Shown piece after piece: positions 37,974 through 42,160 of a stretch of 42,160 bases of DNA. A program made the translations under genes and the position numbers. Position 1 is the stretch's first letter. The number at the start of each line of letters is the position of its first letter. The notes under the pieces were generated by a model. That model ran no database searches, had not been told where the DNA came from, and saw only the letters and a list, made by a program, of their open reading frames with translations. The DNA is from a virus: positions 1-42,160 of IMG/VR virus record IMGVR_UViG_3300041409_000263. One strand, 5' to 3'.

Positions 37974-38165
37974 TCAGGCAGTACGGGTGCGGGCGTCGAT
38001 GAACCGCGCCAAGTCGTCGTCACGGATCCGCGTCTTCGACCGCGTGCCCCCGGCCGACAGGTCCACGGCCTTCAGGGCCCCGGAGGCGATGAGCCGGTAC
38101 ACGGTGTTGTCGCCGCAGCGGAGCCGTTGGGCGGTCTCGGGGACGGTGTAGAGCTGCGTGCTCAC
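37974..38165 (-). CDS. HTH excisionase-like protein
   Basis: From the GTG at 38165 the product is 63 aa. LYTVPETAQRLRCGDNTVYRLIASGALKAVDLSAGGTRSKTRIRDDDLARFI is a MerR/excisionase-type helix-turn-helix followed by a wing and a second short helix. Such proteins direct integrase toward excision or bind DNA near early promoters. The gene is co-transcribed with the Cro-like gene. TCGTGA start overlap. Confidence 0.75.
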   Translation of the reverse strand: MSTQLYTVPETAQRLRCGDNTVYRLIASGALKAVDLSAGGTRSKTRIRDDDLARFIDARTRTA

Positions 38166-38311
38166 GACGCCACCGCCAGCACCACGAACACGGCAGCCAA
38201 GGTGGCGAGGAGAGCGGCGTTGATCCACCGGCCGGCGCTGCGCCGGTAGAACGCGGCGAGCGTGTTCCCGCCGACGTAGCAGGCGGACGACATGATCAGC
38301 AGGCCAGTCAC
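38162..38311 (-). CDS. Small two-helix membrane protein in the control region
   Basis: The product is 49 aa from GTG 38311. Two hydrophobic segments (VTGLLIMSSACYVGGNTLAAF and WINAALLATLAAVFVVLAV) flank a short basic loop (YRRSAGR). It is translationally coupled between the Cro-like and excisionase-like genes. A role in superinfection exclusion is inference. Confidence 0.6.
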   Translation of the reverse strand: MTGLLIMSSACYVGGNTLAAFYRRSAGRWINAALLATLAAVFVVLAVAS

Positions 38312-38538
38312 GACGCCACCGACTCGTCGGCCCGGGTGGAGATGTCGTCGAGGTCCACGCCGAGGGCCTTCGCGATGCGGAGGAGCGTGGCCGGTCGGGG
38401 CTGGACGGCGCCGGTCTCGATCTTCGACAGGCCGCCCTTGGAGATGGGGACACGCGCGGCGAGGGTCGGAAGTGTGACGCCGAGGTCTTCTCGTCGGGCG
38501 CGGATCACTGCGCCGTTGGTCTTCCTCGTTGCTCCCAT
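38308..38538 (-). CDS. Cro-like XRE family HTH regulator
   Basis: The product is 76 aa. VIRARREDLGVTLPTLAARVPISKGGLSKIETGAVQPRPATLLRIAKALGVDLDDI covers a five-helix XRE domain with the recognition helix near SKGGLSKIE. It is the first gene of the leftward transcript. The ATG at 38538 lies 6 bases after a consensus -10, so the mRNA is probably leaderless. The promoter overlaps an operator (38543-38560). It should compete with the rightward repressor for these sites. Confidence 0.85.
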   Translation of the reverse strand: MGATRKTNGAVIRARREDLGVTLPTLAARVPISKGGLSKIETGAVQPRPATLLRIAKALGVDLDDISTRADESVAS

Positions 38539-38542
38539 GTGA

Positions 38543-38560
38543 GAAACCTATGGAAACTCG
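38543..38560. promoter_or_regulatory. Operator site 1 (GAAACCTATGGAAACTCG)
   Basis: This is the first of three related 18-bp sites. It overlaps the -10 of the leftward promoter, so binding should block transcription of the Cro-like gene. Two GAAAC half-units are spaced 10 bases apart within it. Confidence 0.75.
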
Positions 38561-38573
38561 TACTGGCTGTCAA
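38545..38573 (-). promoter_or_regulatory. Leftward early promoter (TTGACA-17-TAGGTT)
   Basis: On the minus strand a perfect -35 TTGACA (38573-38568), a 17-bp spacer and a -10 TAGGTT (38550-38545) end 6 bases before the ATG of the Cro-like gene, which suggests a leaderless transcript. An 18-bp operator covers the -10 and most of the spacer. Confidence 0.85.
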
Positions 38574-38583
38574 CGGGTTCGGG

Positions 38584-38601
38584 GAAAGTTGTGGAAACTC
38601 G
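38584..38601. promoter_or_regulatory. Operator site 2 (GAAAGTTGTGGAAACTCG)
   Basis: It is 15 of 18 identical to site 1, in the same orientation, 41 bp away and just upstream of the leftward -35. The GGAAACTCGT core is exact. Confidence 0.7.
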
Positions 38602-38671
38602 TTCCGCGGGACGGACATGGGGTGGTATGCGGGGCCACAATGGGCATCTCCGGCAGAAGGGTCAGAACCCC

Positions 38672-38702
38672 ATGACACAGGTGGTCGAGTTTCCTCAGGT
38701 TT
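38672..38702 (+). promoter_or_regulatory. Possible rightward promoter for repressor (ATGACA-19-CAGGTT)
   Basis: A -35-like ATGACA (38672-38677, 5/6 match) and a -10-like CAGGTT (38697-38702) lie 19 bp apart. The layout mirrors the leftward promoter relative to its operator. If real, the ATG at 38672 is part of the -35, and translation starts later. Confidence 0.5.
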
Positions 38703-38703
38703 C
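38686..38703. promoter_or_regulatory. Operator site 3 (inverted)
   Basis: In inverse orientation it reads GAAACCTGAGGAAACTCG, 16 of 18 identical to site 1. It covers the presumed -10 of the rightward promoter, so it could mediate autoregulation of the repressor. Confidence 0.75.
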
Positions 38704-38719
38704 CTGCAACGATGTGCAC

Positions 38720-39097
38720 ATGAACGCAGGGAAAGTCGGCGAGCGCATCCGCTCCGCACGTCAGAGACTCGGCTGGGACCGCGAACGACTCGCCGCGGAA
38801 CTCACCGCACTAGGTGGCAGACCCATCACCACGAGAACCATCGACAACTGGGAGAACGGACGCACCTACCCACGCGACCGCCTCGGCGCCCTCGAACGGC
38901 TCCTCGGAGTCGACCTCCGCGACGGCCGGGCCCTCGACATACCCGTCCCGAGGGCCGGCCGGGAGATCGTCGTCAGACTCCACGTCCAGGGCAGTCTCAC
39001 CGATGAGGCAATCCAGAGGGCCACGACCGCAGCGCAGGCCGTGGTCGATGCCGTGATTGCCATGGAAACGGCCGACAACGACCCGGAAGGGCAGTAA
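38720..39097 (+). CDS. Phage repressor, XRE family HTH
   Basis: From ATG 38720 the product is 125 aa. MNAGKVGERIRSARQRLGWDRERLAAELTALGGRPITTRTIDNWENGRTYPRDRLGALERLLGVDL is an XRE HTH domain with recognition helix TTRTIDNWE. The C-terminus (IVVRLHVQGSLTDEAIQRATTAAQAVVDAVI) is helical, likely dimerising. The open frame also starts at ATG 38672, but that ATG lies inside a promoter-like element and the extra 16 residues cross operator site 3. No LexA-type serine peptidase part is visible, so induction would be RecA-independent or use another route. It is oriented with integrase, as in many actinophages. Confidence 0.8.
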   Translation: MNAGKVGERIRSARQRLGWDRERLAAELTALGGRPITTRTIDNWENGRTYPRDRLGALERLLGVDLRDGRALDIPVPRAGREIVVRLHVQGSLTDEAIQRATTAAQAVVDAVIAMETADNDPEGQ

Positions 39098-39112: not shown

Positions 39113-39145
39113 GGTGAGTACCTAGTGAACGATCATGTACTCACC
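39113..39145. repeat. Inverted repeat after repressor gene (GGTGAGTAC ... GTACTCACC)
   Basis: A 9-bp perfect inverted repeat with a 15-base loop in the 104-bp gap between repressor and the small gene before integrase. It may terminate the repressor transcript or bind a regulator. A second pair, ACGATCATG (39129-39137) and CATGATCGT (39201-39209), spans the next start codon. Confidence 0.55.
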
Positions 39146-39201
39146 GTAACCTCAGGGTCGCTCGGTCGTTGGTCACCTTCCGTCCCCCGGAGGTTCAAAA
39201 C

Positions 39202-39360
39202 ATGATCGTCAGATCCGCCGACATGGCCCCTCGCATCGCCCTAGTGACCACCGGCACCGACACGTGGCTCGTCTTTCAGCGCGGCCTCCTCCCCAACGAC
39301 GTAGAGGAGGAGCTCGACATCATCCTCAGTGACGTCGAGCTGGTCGAAACGGGCGACTGA
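39202..39360 (+). CDS. Small acidic protein coupled to integrase
   Basis: The product is 52 aa from ATG 39202 with GGAGG at 39189-39193, an 8-base spacer. The longer frame from 39169 lacks a site. MIVRSADMAPRIALVTTGTD is followed by LVFQRGLLPNDVEEELDIILSDVELVE. The stop overlaps the integrase ATG (TGATG), so translation is coupled. An integrase-modulating role is possible but unproved. Confidence 0.7.
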   Translation: MIVRSADMAPRIALVTTGTDTWLVFQRGLLPNDVEEELDIILSDVELVETGD

Positions 39361-40559
39361 TGCCTTGGATCCGCAAGCTGCCATCCGGGAAGTGGAACGC
39401 CGTCGTCCGGCTCCCCAACGGGAAACGCGCGTCGAGAACCGACCCCCTCAAGGGTGTGGTGAAGCGGTGGGCCGACGACCTGGAATCTGCCGTCCGGAGC
39501 GGTGACTGGCTCGACCCGTCCGCCGGCAAGGTGACCGTCGCGGCGTTCCACGACCAGTGGTGGCCGTGGCCGGGCCGGAAGGGCCAGCCGCTGTCGGACC
39601 ACACGGTGCGGAACTACGAGCAGCAGTGGCGGCTCCGCGTCGAGCCGTACTGGGGGCGGTGGCAGTTGTCGGCGGTCCAGCGCAAGGACGTGGCCGACTG
39701 GTGCGACCAGATGAACCGCTCCACCCGCATCACCCACACCGACCACCCGTCGAAGATCATCGACGGGTCGAAGCTGGCGACGTACGAGGCCGACGGGTGG
39801 GAAGACGTCGGCCGGGCGACGCGCGTCAACGAGATCTCCCGCACCATGTTCGCGTCGCTGCTCCGCGTCGCCGCCGAGAAGGGCGTCATCCGGGCGAACC
39901 CCGCGGACGGGGTGTACCCGGCGAAGCCGCTCGTAGCGCCGCCCCGCTGGTTCACCAAGGACGAGGCCGCCCGAATCTTGGCGTCGGTGCGATCGGATGT
40001 GGACCGGCTGATGGTGGAGTTCAACCTGCTGGCCGGGCTGCGGTGGGGTGAACTCGCGGCACTGCGCGGAATGCGGATCGACCAGCTGCGTGGCGTGGTG
40101 GTGGTGCAGGACGTGCTGATGTACGACGGGAAGCTGCGGCCGTACCCGAAGGAGCACCACTCGCAGCGGGAGGTGCCGATCCCGCCGCACCTGCTGGCAC
40201 GGATGAAGGCGCGCGTGGGGGATGACCTGACGAGGTGGCTGTTCCCGGCCCCCGCCGGCGGGCCGCTGCTGTACGCGAACTGGTATGCGCGGGTGTGGGT
40301 TCCGGCGCTGGCGAAAGCGCAGGTGCAGGGGACGCCGCATCACATGAGGCACACGGCGGCGTCGTGGCTGGTGCAGGACGGCGTGGACTTGGGGCGGGTG
40401 CAGAGGCTGCTGGGGCACGCGTCGTACACGACGACGCAGCGGTACGCGCATCTGGCGCCGGATTACCACGGCGCGATCACGGATTCTTGGCGCCGTGACA
40501 CACAGGTGACACACGAGCCGCCTGAGGAGGCGGCGGGTGAGGGCCCGCAGGGGTCCTGA
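39360..40559 (+). CDS. Tyrosine recombinase (phage integrase)
   Basis: The product is 399 aa. An AP2-like arm-binding N-terminus (IRKLPSGKWNAVVRLPNGKRASRT, 4-27) is followed by a SAM-like core-binding domain (about 58-170). The catalytic domain has Arg228 (AGLRWGE), Lys264 region, His327-x-x-Arg330 (PHHMRHT), His353 (LLGHAS) and Tyr362 (RYAHL), all present. The gene is adjacent to a tRNA fragment at 40573, the expected attachment site. It is complete and should be active. The gene is coupled to the small upstream protein. Confidence 0.95.
   Translation: MPWIRKLPSGKWNAVVRLPNGKRASRTDPLKGVVKRWADDLESAVRSGDWLDPSAGKVTVAAFHDQWWPWPGRKGQPLSDHTVRNYEQQWRLRVEPYWGRWQLSAVQRKDVADWCDQMNRSTRITHTDHPSKIIDGSKLATYEADGWEDVGRATRVNEISRTMFASLLRVAAEKGVIRANPADGVYPAKPLVAPPRWFTKDEAARILASVRSDVDRLMVEFNLLAGLRWGELAALRGMRIDQLRGVVVVQDVLMYDGKLRPYPKEHHSQREVPIPPHLLARMKARVGDDLTRWLFPAPAGGPLLYANWYARVWVPALAKAQVQGTPHHMRHTAASWLVQDGVDLGRVQRLLGHASYTTTQRYAHLAPDYHGAITDSWRRDTQVTHEPPEEAAGEGPQGS
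40494..40515 (+). repeat. 22-bp direct repeat, left copy (near integrase end)
   Basis: CGTGACACACAGGTGACACA... lies in the last codons of integrase. It differs from the copy at 40734-40755 at two positions. The two flank the attachment core, in the same orientation. Confidence 0.8.
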
Positions 40560-40572
40560 CCTGCGGCGATAG

Positions 40573-40619
40573 TGGTGCCCCCGGCAGGATTCGAACCTGC
40601 GGCCTACCGCTTAGGAGGC
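40573..40619 (-). other. Attachment-site core: 3' part of tRNA-Arg(CCU)-like gene
   Basis: On the minus strand this holds an anticodon loop CTCCTAA, the anticodon-stem 3' side, a variable region, the T-arm (GCAGG TTCGAAT CCTGC), the acceptor 3' strand and CCA. The 5' half of a tRNA is absent: sequence beyond 40619 cannot pair with the acceptor or D arm. Such a 3' fragment next to integrase marks an attL/attR (or attP) site, with crossover likely at the anticodon loop. The intact tRNA should be at the other end of the element. Confidence 0.85.
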
Positions 40620-40931
40620 ACTTCCGGACTGCGGGTGGTGGAGCGTGGTGGAGTGTCTTGGCTGGTGGGAGGTGCCGTGCCACGTCGGGTCACGCTCCAG
40701 GACCCGTCAAGGTCCTCCACCGCCATTCGGCCTCGTGACACACCGGTGACTCACGTTCCGGCGGGTGTAGCGTCAGGGTGTCCGTCGCGATGGGACTGCT
40801 CAGCCGCGCCGCTTCCCGGCCAAGGGGGAGCGGCGCGGTGGCGTATGCGGAGCTACAGGCCGAGTTGCCCGGACGCGGGTGACGCCCACCGGGACGACCG
40901 GTCGTAGCCGCGGAGGGGAACCAGCTCGCCG
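40620..40931. other. 312-bp region without a supported gene, between attachment core and second element
   Basis: An open frame on the plus strand across the tRNA fragment (40572-40907) has no start signal and reads through structural RNA sequence, so it is not counted. The region contains GTGGTGGAG twice near 40634-40655 and the 22-bp repeat copy at 40734-40755. No promoter is clear. Confidence 0.6.
40734..40755 (+). repeat. 22-bp direct repeat, right copy
   Basis: 20 of 22 bases are identical to 40494-40515. It could be an integrase arm site or a remnant of the end of a related integrase gene. Confidence 0.75.
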
Positions 40932-41132
40932 TCAGGCATCGGAATTGAGCTCTAGCCCGGCGCCGATGACGTGCTCGCGAATCCAGTCCTCACACTTCTC
41001 TTTCGAGTCGAACCAGACATCGAAGCACGGGATGTGACCGGTCCCGGTCTCCAAGCACGGCTGCCAGACGTAGGGCGGGACCCCATCCTCGTCGTCGACG
41101 TCGGCGAACCAGTGGCTCACGCCGCCGCCCAC
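40932..41132 (-). CDS. Small acidic protein of the neighbouring element, unknown
   Basis: The product is 66 aa: VSHWFADVDDEDGVPPYVWQPCLETGTG, then CFDVWFDSKEKCEDWIREHVIG. An aromatic/acidic small protein, downstream of the HTH gene with a 16-bp overlap. No function recognised. Confidence 0.6.
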   Translation of the reverse strand: MGGGVSHWFADVDDEDGVPPYVWQPCLETGTGHIPCFDVWFDSKEKCEDWIREHVIGAGLELNSDA

Positions 41133-41338
41133 CGCAGCAGGGACTTGGCGCTGTCGAGGCGACAGTCGAGCACGCCTTCCTCCACGCGCATCATCGTGGA
41201 CGCAGCGACCCCCGCCTCGTCGGCTGCCCGGCGCAGACTCAAGCCCTTGCGGCGCCGGGCCTCACGGATGATCAGGGGCAGGGCGTCGAGAACGGCCAGG
41301 ATCTCGCCGTACGGCGTCGGCGCGGTGCGGTCACTCAC
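41117..41338 (-). CDS. Small XRE-type HTH protein of the neighbouring element
   Basis: The product is 73 aa from GTG 41338, overlapping the second integrase stop by 8 bp. EILAVLDALPLIIREARRRKGLSLRRAADEAGVAASTMMRVEEGVLDCRLDSAKSLLRWA is a compact helix-turn-helix (recognition helix near AASTMMRVE). It may regulate its element or act in excision. Confidence 0.75.
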   Translation of the reverse strand: MSDRTAPTPYGEILAVLDALPLIIREARRRKGLSLRRAADEAGVAASTMMRVEEGVLDCRLDSAKSLLRWAAA

Positions 41339-42160
41339 GGTTCGTCTCCTTCGGGGCGGGGGACCAGGGGAAGTGGAGGCGGCCGGTCGCGTCGAGCTTC
41401 GCCCGCTCACCGCGGCGGTCGTACCGGGACGTGGTAGTCGGGGAGGCGTGCCCGGCCATGTGCTGGACGGTGGCAATGTCGGCGCCGGCGTCGAGGAGGT
41501 TGCCGATCCAGGTGCGGCGGGCGTCGTGGGGGGAGAACGCGGCGGCCAGCCCCGCTTCTTGGCCGCGGATGATGAACCGTTCGTGGACGGCTTGGGTGGT
41601 GATGCCGCGGACGGTGACGCGCCCGGCCTTGTTGACGGGGCAGAACAGGGCGCCCGGGTCGGAGCTGCGGATGTCGAGCCAGTCGCGGACCGCGGCAAGG
41701 CTGCCGCCTTGGACGTACGCGGTGCGCTGCTTCCGACGCTTCGCCTTCCGAACCTTGATCTCGCCTGTCTCAGTGTTGAGGTCATCGAGTTCGATGCTGA
41801 CGAGTTCGCCGACGCGGAGCCCGGCGCCGAAGAGGACGCCGAGCATGGCTCCGTCGCGGAGGCCGATGGGCTTGCGGTCGCGCTGGCACACGTTGACGAG
41901 GGCGTGGATTTCGCCGGTGTCGACGTGCCGGCCGGCGGGTAGCCGGGTTTCGGTCAGGTTTTCGATGTCGGCGGCGCGCTGGTAGTCCTCGGCGGTCATG
42001 AGGCCGAGCCGCCACGCTTCTTTGAGGACGCCGCGGAGCGCGGATAGGTGCTTGTTGACGGTGGCGGGGGCCATGCCTTCGGTGAGGTGGGCGCGGAGGG
42101 CTTGGGTGTGTTGGTAGCGGAGTTGGTGCCAGGGGAAGGTTTGTGCGGTGTGTTGTCCGT
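41331..42160 (-). CDS. Second tyrosine recombinase, N-terminus cut by window edge
   Basis: The visible 276 codons run from a core-binding domain (ATVNKHLSALRGVLKEAWRLGLM) into a full catalytic domain. LFGAGLRVGELVSIELDDL has the first Arg, VRKAKRRKQRTAYV the beta-strand Lys, FSPHDARRTWIGNLLDAGADIATVQHMAGHASPTTTSRYDRRG the His-x-x-Arg, His and Tyr. The start is beyond 42160. It is unlike the phage integrase in sequence and faces it across the tRNA fragment, so it probably belongs to another integrated element or to host DNA. Confidence 0.88.
   Translation of the reverse strand, partial: GQHTAQTFPWHQLRYQHTQALRAHLTEGMAPATVNKHLSALRGVLKEAWRLGLMTAEDYQRAADIENLTETRLPAGRHVDTGEIHALVNVCQRDRKPIGLRDGAMLGVLFGAGLRVGELVSIELDDLNTETGEIKVRKAKRRKQRTAYVQGGSLAAVRDWLDIRSSDPGALFCPVNKAGRVTVRGITTQAVHERFIIRGQEAGLAAAFSPHDARRTWIGNLLDAGADIATVQHMAGHASPTTTSRYDRRGERAKLDATGRLHFPWSPAPKETNRE

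Follow-up and report, generated by a model that had tools for sequence, protein, structure and literature searches.

What regulatory code lies between the two divergent HTH genes of this phage, and which protein reads it? The window, that is the whole IMG/VR virus record of 42,160 bases, belongs to a tailed temperate phage, as evidenced by its tape measure, capsid, scaffold, portal, terminase and RecT genes, and has no near match in the phage collection searched. The first gene of its leftward operon encodes a 76-aa XRE protein (38308..38538, minus strand; HTH_31 2.5e-13, HTH_3 1.2e-11), followed by a 49-aa ORF, an HTH_17 excisionase (37974..38165, minus strand; HTH_17 2.1e-12, PHROG excisionase 1.1e-7) and, farther out, exonuclease, RecT and RuvC genes. 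Rightward, a 125-aa HTH_3 protein (38720..39097, plus strand; HTH_3 6.3e-6) with homologues in 18 relatives precedes a small ORF and a tyrosine integrase (39360..40559, plus strand; PF00589 1.7e-22, phrog_1 5.1e-56). A lytic operon on one side and lysogeny genes on the other is the usual division, and the two divergent HTH regulator genes sit between the lytic operon and the integrase side here as in the type A relatives, which carry a gene homologous to that of the 76-aa protein. From this gene order we infer that the 125-aa protein is the repressor and the 76-aa protein is Cro-like. An AlphaFold2 model of the repressor is confident for the HTH domain (residues 1-65) and less certain for a two-helix C-terminus, which is plausibly the oligomerization part. 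The fold search returned generic HTH matches only, none with E <0.001 in the PDB, and tblastn gave no near match for the protein.

The interval between the two genes holds three 18-bp sites, which the earlier note had recognized as operators and which are present where it placed them. Operator O1 (GAAACCTATGGAAACTCG, 38543..38560, plus strand) has GAAAC half-sites at 38543-38547 and 38553-38557 and lies on the -10 of the leftward promoter Pcro. O2 (GAAAGTTGTGGAAACTCG, 38584..38601, plus strand), with half-sites at 38584 and 38594, lies upstream of the Pcro -35; both placements agree with the earlier reading. O3 (GAAACCTGAGGAAACTCG, 38686..38703, minus strand; half-sites 38689-38693 and 38699-38703) is inverted relative to the other two. 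The outer sites O1 and O3 are identical at 16/18 positions, as had been noted, and O1 and O2 at 15/18, with 41 bp or about four turns from O1 to O2. Dinucleotide shuffling of the 181 bp that separate the start codons, repeated 1000 times, gave an equally good direct pair four times and never an equally good inverted pair or both at once (0/1000 each). The three sites are real and beyond chance. All lie within 161 bp, and the 42,160-base contig contains no others.

Each window operator is a tandem direct repeat, (G)GAAAC-N5-GAAAC, on one strand with a period of exactly 10 bp, the repeated five-mer being GAAAC or GGAAA. At every site the direct match at lag 10 is better than the best dyad match, and the switch region contains no perfect 6-bp palindrome. 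Unlike lambda-type operators, the window operators are not dyad-symmetric; the earlier note had overlooked their repeat structure.

Profile searches with the repressor yielded 18 further switches, mostly from metagenomic virus contigs; one comes from a prophage of Actinomadura sp. KC06 (L126) and another from a Streptosporangiaceae MAG. Their HTH regions are roughly 30-50% identical to that of the window, which forms a long, unresolved branch in the repressor tree. Type A relatives carry the Cro-like gene; in type B an excisionase replaces it or no divergent gene is present (L148, L149). These last two lack a divergent regulator gene immediately upstream yet keep TTGCC-N5-TTGCC at the repressor promoter, about 200 bp upstream of the repressor start, as though only autoregulation had survived there. 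A profile search of 300 and 396 actinobacterial genomes added almost no members among the 11-15 candidates scored per genome. A single-site pattern scan of IMG/VR proved too unspecific and gave chance matches. One locus, L145, was a chance match of TTGACTTTCG-N5-TTTCG with no repressor gene at that place, and L005 was left out, as it showed weak HTH similarity only and the shared layout was not seen. A three-site pattern scan returned L133 and L134, which are repeat arrays without a switch. The array of the unrelated contig L134 (6240-6410) consists of GAAACTCGTG-type 10-bp tandem words among replication-type genes; the word resembles that of the window operators, and the array could possibly represent origin iterons or a dispersed repressor array.

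We counted exact five-base direct repeats in the 200-bp stretch preceding each of the 19 repressor starts and found 82 matches at lag 10, compared with 4.0 ± 2.5 in shuffles (z = 31). Every locus has at least one such repeat (19/19, with 2.7 loci expected). Across lags 5 to 40 none came near lag 10, the runner-up being lag 20, two turns, with z = 5. Restricting the set to one locus per operator word still left 48 lag-10 matches where 2.4 were expected. Coding DNA of the same 19 loci gave seven matches at lag 10, and its peaks fall on multiples of three.

The period is shared while the words vary between phages. CGTAA/CGAAA is found in L004, L125, L126, L128, L129 and L131, GGCAAG in L132, L137, L140 and L149, GGGAAG in L135, CGAAC in L143, GCAAC in L138 and ACACATC in L139. 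Within one phage the words co-vary at O1, O2 and O3. Some sites consist of three or four consecutive units, for example ACGAAtttgtACGTAgttctACGTAA in L128. The more distant relative L143 (Streptosporangiaceae MAG, G002:C94) has four consecutive 10-bp units, TCGAAcagtaCCGAAgagtgTCGAAcagtgTCAAG, at about 1391-1425, a run which suggests that unit number varies between elements.

Despite the different words, the units keep their distances from the two start codons to within 1-2 bp in the window, L125, L128 and L131. Counting half-site starts from the Cro ATG for O1 and O2 and from the repressor ATG for O3, the window has O1 at +4 and +14, O2 at +45 and +55 and O3 at -31 and -21. The corresponding offsets are +4, +14; +45, +55, +65; and -29, -19 in L131, +3, +13; +44, +54; and -29, -19 in L125, and +4, +14; +46, +56, +66; and -30, -20 in L128. 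The distance from O1 to O2 is 41 bp in the window, L125 and L131 and 42 bp in L128. In L004, L129 and L126, O1 and O3 are retained and O2 is shifted or partly missed by the pattern. The strongest argument that the three window sites are functional is this persistence of a three-operator layout through the divergence of both word and protein.

Pcro (38545..38573, minus strand) consists of a -35 TTGACA (38573-38568), a 17-bp spacer and a -10 TAGGTT (38550-38545), which the 6 nt TCTCAC separate from the Cro-like start codon, ATG, at 38538. In 9/9 switches TANNNT is found 6-7 nt ahead of the Cro start codon, against a background of 0.2%, accompanied by a -35 starting with TTG at 17-18 bp. This conservation in nine divergent switches supports the leftward promoter and leaderless Cro-like gene that the earlier note had read from the window, and the Pcro transcript is predicted to be leaderless with its start at 38538 (minus strand).

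The rightward promoter had to be reassigned. In all 19 switches a -10-like hexamer NANNNT lies 6-7 nt before the repressor start (background 4.8%), a statistic that is slightly circular since we assigned the relatives' starts ourselves as the nearest start codon before the conserved domain. A -35 of the form TTGAC, TTGCG or TCGAG starts at -34 to -37 in 17/19. Applied to the window, the conserved hexamer and -35 spacing place Prep at 38685..38713 (plus strand), with -35 TCGAGT (38685-38690; a poor match, 3/6), a 17-bp spacer and -10 AACGAT (38708-38713) at a spacing of 6 from the ATG. The start is hence predicted at 38720 and the transcript as leaderless (plus strand), with O3 between the Prep -35 and -10. 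The promoter proposed earlier, ATGACA-18-CAGGTT, does exist on the plus strand, but by this comparison it is probably not the rightward promoter. With TCGAGT-17-AACGAT in its place, the predicted start at about 38709 gives way to one 11 nt downstream, and O3 no longer falls on the rightward -10. The translation start at 38720 that had been suggested is supported; the 16 residues said to be removed from the longest frame count from ATG 38672, and the figure is 43 from the longest ORF (GTG 38591). With O1 overlapping the Pcro -10, O3 inside Prep and these positions conserved, the three sites look like operators shared by both promoters.

The integrase side shows several further features. By eye, two overlapping inverted repeats, GGTGAGTAC/GTACTCACC at 39113-39145 and ACGATCATGT/ACATGATCGT at 39129-39209, lie between repressor and integrase; they have no T-run and are perhaps regulatory sites for the integrase. 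Beside the integrase, also by eye, we found the 3' half of a tRNA-Arg(CCU) gene (40574-40618), of which ARAGORN finds no whole tRNA and which is likely the attachment core. Adjoining this fragment is a repeat with a 10-bp period, GTGGTGGAGC/GTGGTGGAGT at 40635-40654, whose word is unlike the operators; it is a candidate excisionase or integrase arm site. Past the att-like fragment there is a second tyrosine recombinase (41331-42074), overlapped by a frame (41117-41785) that reads as an XRE-like HTH. This region may be host DNA, a neighboring element or phage.

Which protein, then, reads the operator words? Of the regulators, only the repressor occurs in all 19 switches, a count that holds by construction because the loci were found with the repressor; the Cro-like gene and the HTH_17 gene are each missing in some. 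The repressor helix is SQKTIDNWE in the elements with the CGAAA word (TQKTIDNWE in L128) and TTRTIDNWE in the window. A serious alternative is that the 10-bp repeats are read by the HTH_17 excisionase, which would serve both as recombination-directionality factor and as promoter repressor in the manner of phage 186 Apl, while the XRE proteins bind elsewhere. It is serious because binding to one-turn direct repeats is known from HTH_17 proteins, and proteins of the Apl, BldC and RdfS type do so head-to-tail on units about one turn apart. The HTH_17 gene is present in the window and most relatives, word similarity correlates with HTH_17 similarity too, and a Mantel test does not separate HTH_17 from the repressor. 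Nevertheless, HTH_17 cores are only 20-29% identical among four elements that share the same word, while those of the window and L131 reach 56% identity although the words differ. Moreover, no HTH_17 gene was found in the L138 record, and the operator word is absent near the att site of the window (the contig holds one att end), where the other 10-bp repeat at 40635-40654 is found. We consider it unlikely that the excisionase is the reader. That the Cro-like protein alone reads the words, with the repressor acting via other sites or via Cro, is improbable. Both proteins are XRE/HTH_3-like and O1 lies at the start of cro, but the type B switches keep the repeats without Cro, and L138 has the Cro recognition helix of L131 yet another word and another repressor helix.

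The remaining alternatives concern the nature of the sites themselves. XRE repressors usually bind dyads as two-fold dimers, those of lambdoid phages among them, and O1 and O3 hold CC-N3-GG; each 18-mer could be a degenerate dyad with a CCTnnGG core, bound by a classical repressor dimer, and the 10-bp period incidental. This is very improbable given that all 19 loci carry direct repeats at lag 10, built on a variety of words, and given the sites of three or four units in a row and the absence of a 6-bp palindrome from the window region. The distant XRE gene at the contrast locus L151 has palindromic operators, ACAGGG-N3-CCCTGT, and these clear dyads show that our analysis was able to detect such symmetry. 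Part of each repeat overlaps promoter elements (TTGAC/TTTCG, TAGG/TTTC) and the two window promoters are alike beyond the operators, as would be expected if the repeats were duplicated promoter elements and not operators. However, O2 lies outside both promoters with the same word and period, and the words shift jointly across the three operators of any one phage and are not the same from phage to phage, which leaves hardly any room for an explanation by promoter architecture.

We therefore return to the repressor as reader, and propose with a probability of roughly two in three that the locus is the lysis-lysogeny switch of a temperate tailed actinobacterial phage, in which an XRE/HTH_3 repressor reads head-to-tail 10-bp words, silences the lytic operon at O1 and O2 and limits its own synthesis at O3. 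The model starts from what is observed, namely the sites, the promoters as conserved sequence, the gene order, the geometry and the 10-bp period. Divergent Pcro and Prep would give leaderless mRNAs for the Cro-like protein and the repressor, the former leading the lytic operon with xis, exonuclease, recT and ruvC and the latter followed by integrase. The repressor HTH would read the 5-6 bp word (G)GAAAC, with at least two monomers lined up head-to-tail along a single DNA face, each occupying one 10-bp turn. Bound to O1, the repressor would cover the Pcro -10; O2, about four turns away on the same face, would add cooperativity, and the two together would shut down the lytic operon. Repressor on O3, between the Prep -35 and -10, would restrain repressor synthesis, and Cro probably competes at the same words. 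As to the repressor/Cro switch that the earlier note described, the three operators, the leaderless Cro and the start at 38720 find support in gene order and geometry among divergent relatives; the rightward promoter and the simple lambda-like reading do not, the latter because the operators are head-to-tail 10-bp repeats and not dyads.

The odds are even, in our judgement, that these loci represent a widespread, undescribed class of actinobacterial phage switches in which an XRE repressor binds head-to-tail with one monomer per 10-bp turn. If true, the operator word is free to diverge (at least six words were seen) while unit phase and position are fixed, and a new immunity specificity would need one recognition-helix change plus unit conversion, with or without Cro. 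With one simple rule, at least two words spaced by 10 bp and set at constant distances from a pair of leaderless starts, raw sequence is enough to read off switches, operators, promoters and exact transcription starts even where phages have diverged widely, and the pairing of words with recognition helices makes immunity specificity in the group directly testable.

Few actinophages have an immunity repressor that has been characterized in detail, and operators built as direct repeats are less common than dyads. In the literature searched, which excludes most subscription journals, we found no description of an actinophage switch whose operators are tandem repeats of one turn. Repeats of this kind do occur in a cultured phage, Thermobifida phage P1312 (L152; KT021004.1, 1315-1475), as AGGCAAC pairs: AGGCAACggtAGGCAAC and CAGGCAACagCAGGCAAC, each at a 10-bp period, lie around its XRE regulator gene, although their orientation relative to the promoters is unlike that in the window's family. 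Lag-10 repeats were not found in Gordonia phage SallySpecial, whose switch comes next after P1312 in Cro similarity among annotated actinophages. Mycobacteriophage BPs resembles the window in its divergent Prep and PR, an operator between -35 and -10 and an integrase beside the repressor, but has 12-bp palindromic half-sites, five regulatory regions and integration-dependent immunity (PMC4557955). The repressor of mycobacteriophages L5/TipsytheTRex is likewise an actinophage repressor with asymmetric sites; it is a monomer with two DNA-binding domains whose 13-bp sites are dispersed genome-wide, whereas the window has three sites in the switch only (PMC9283540).

Outside actinophages, Staphylococcus phage phi11 similarly has three homologous operators between divergent cI and cro, with O1 at cro and O3 at cI, but these are 15 bp long and its 239-residue CI, with a LexA-like C-terminal domain, binds as a dimer (PMC3991615). 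The C repressor of P2 and Pf4r are, like the proposed window repressor, small HTH immunity repressors with non-palindromic direct repeats at the lytic promoter (PMC4752584, PMC8402870). P2 C binds as a symmetric dimer to two 8-bp direct repeats 22 bp apart, two turns, at one promoter (PMC4752584), while the window has 5-6 bp words 10 bp apart at three operators and does not show the P2 C type of spacing. The switch region of coliphage 186 likewise contains direct repeats, spaced 10-11 bp, and its Apl has a Cro-like role, yet Apl is an excisionase that also binds att, with face-to-face promoters, seven units and a separate immunity repressor CI (PMC7498355). The window shares the one-turn direct repeats of Apl/RDF-type sites but lacks the same repeats at the one att end that the contig holds. 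BldC of the actinobacterium Streptomyces (PMC5859096) and RdfS (PMC11963761) bind head-to-tail on direct repeats, as our model proposes for the repressor; these are MerR-like winged HTH proteins with 9-bp units, whereas the regulator proposed for the window is an XRE/HTH_3 protein.
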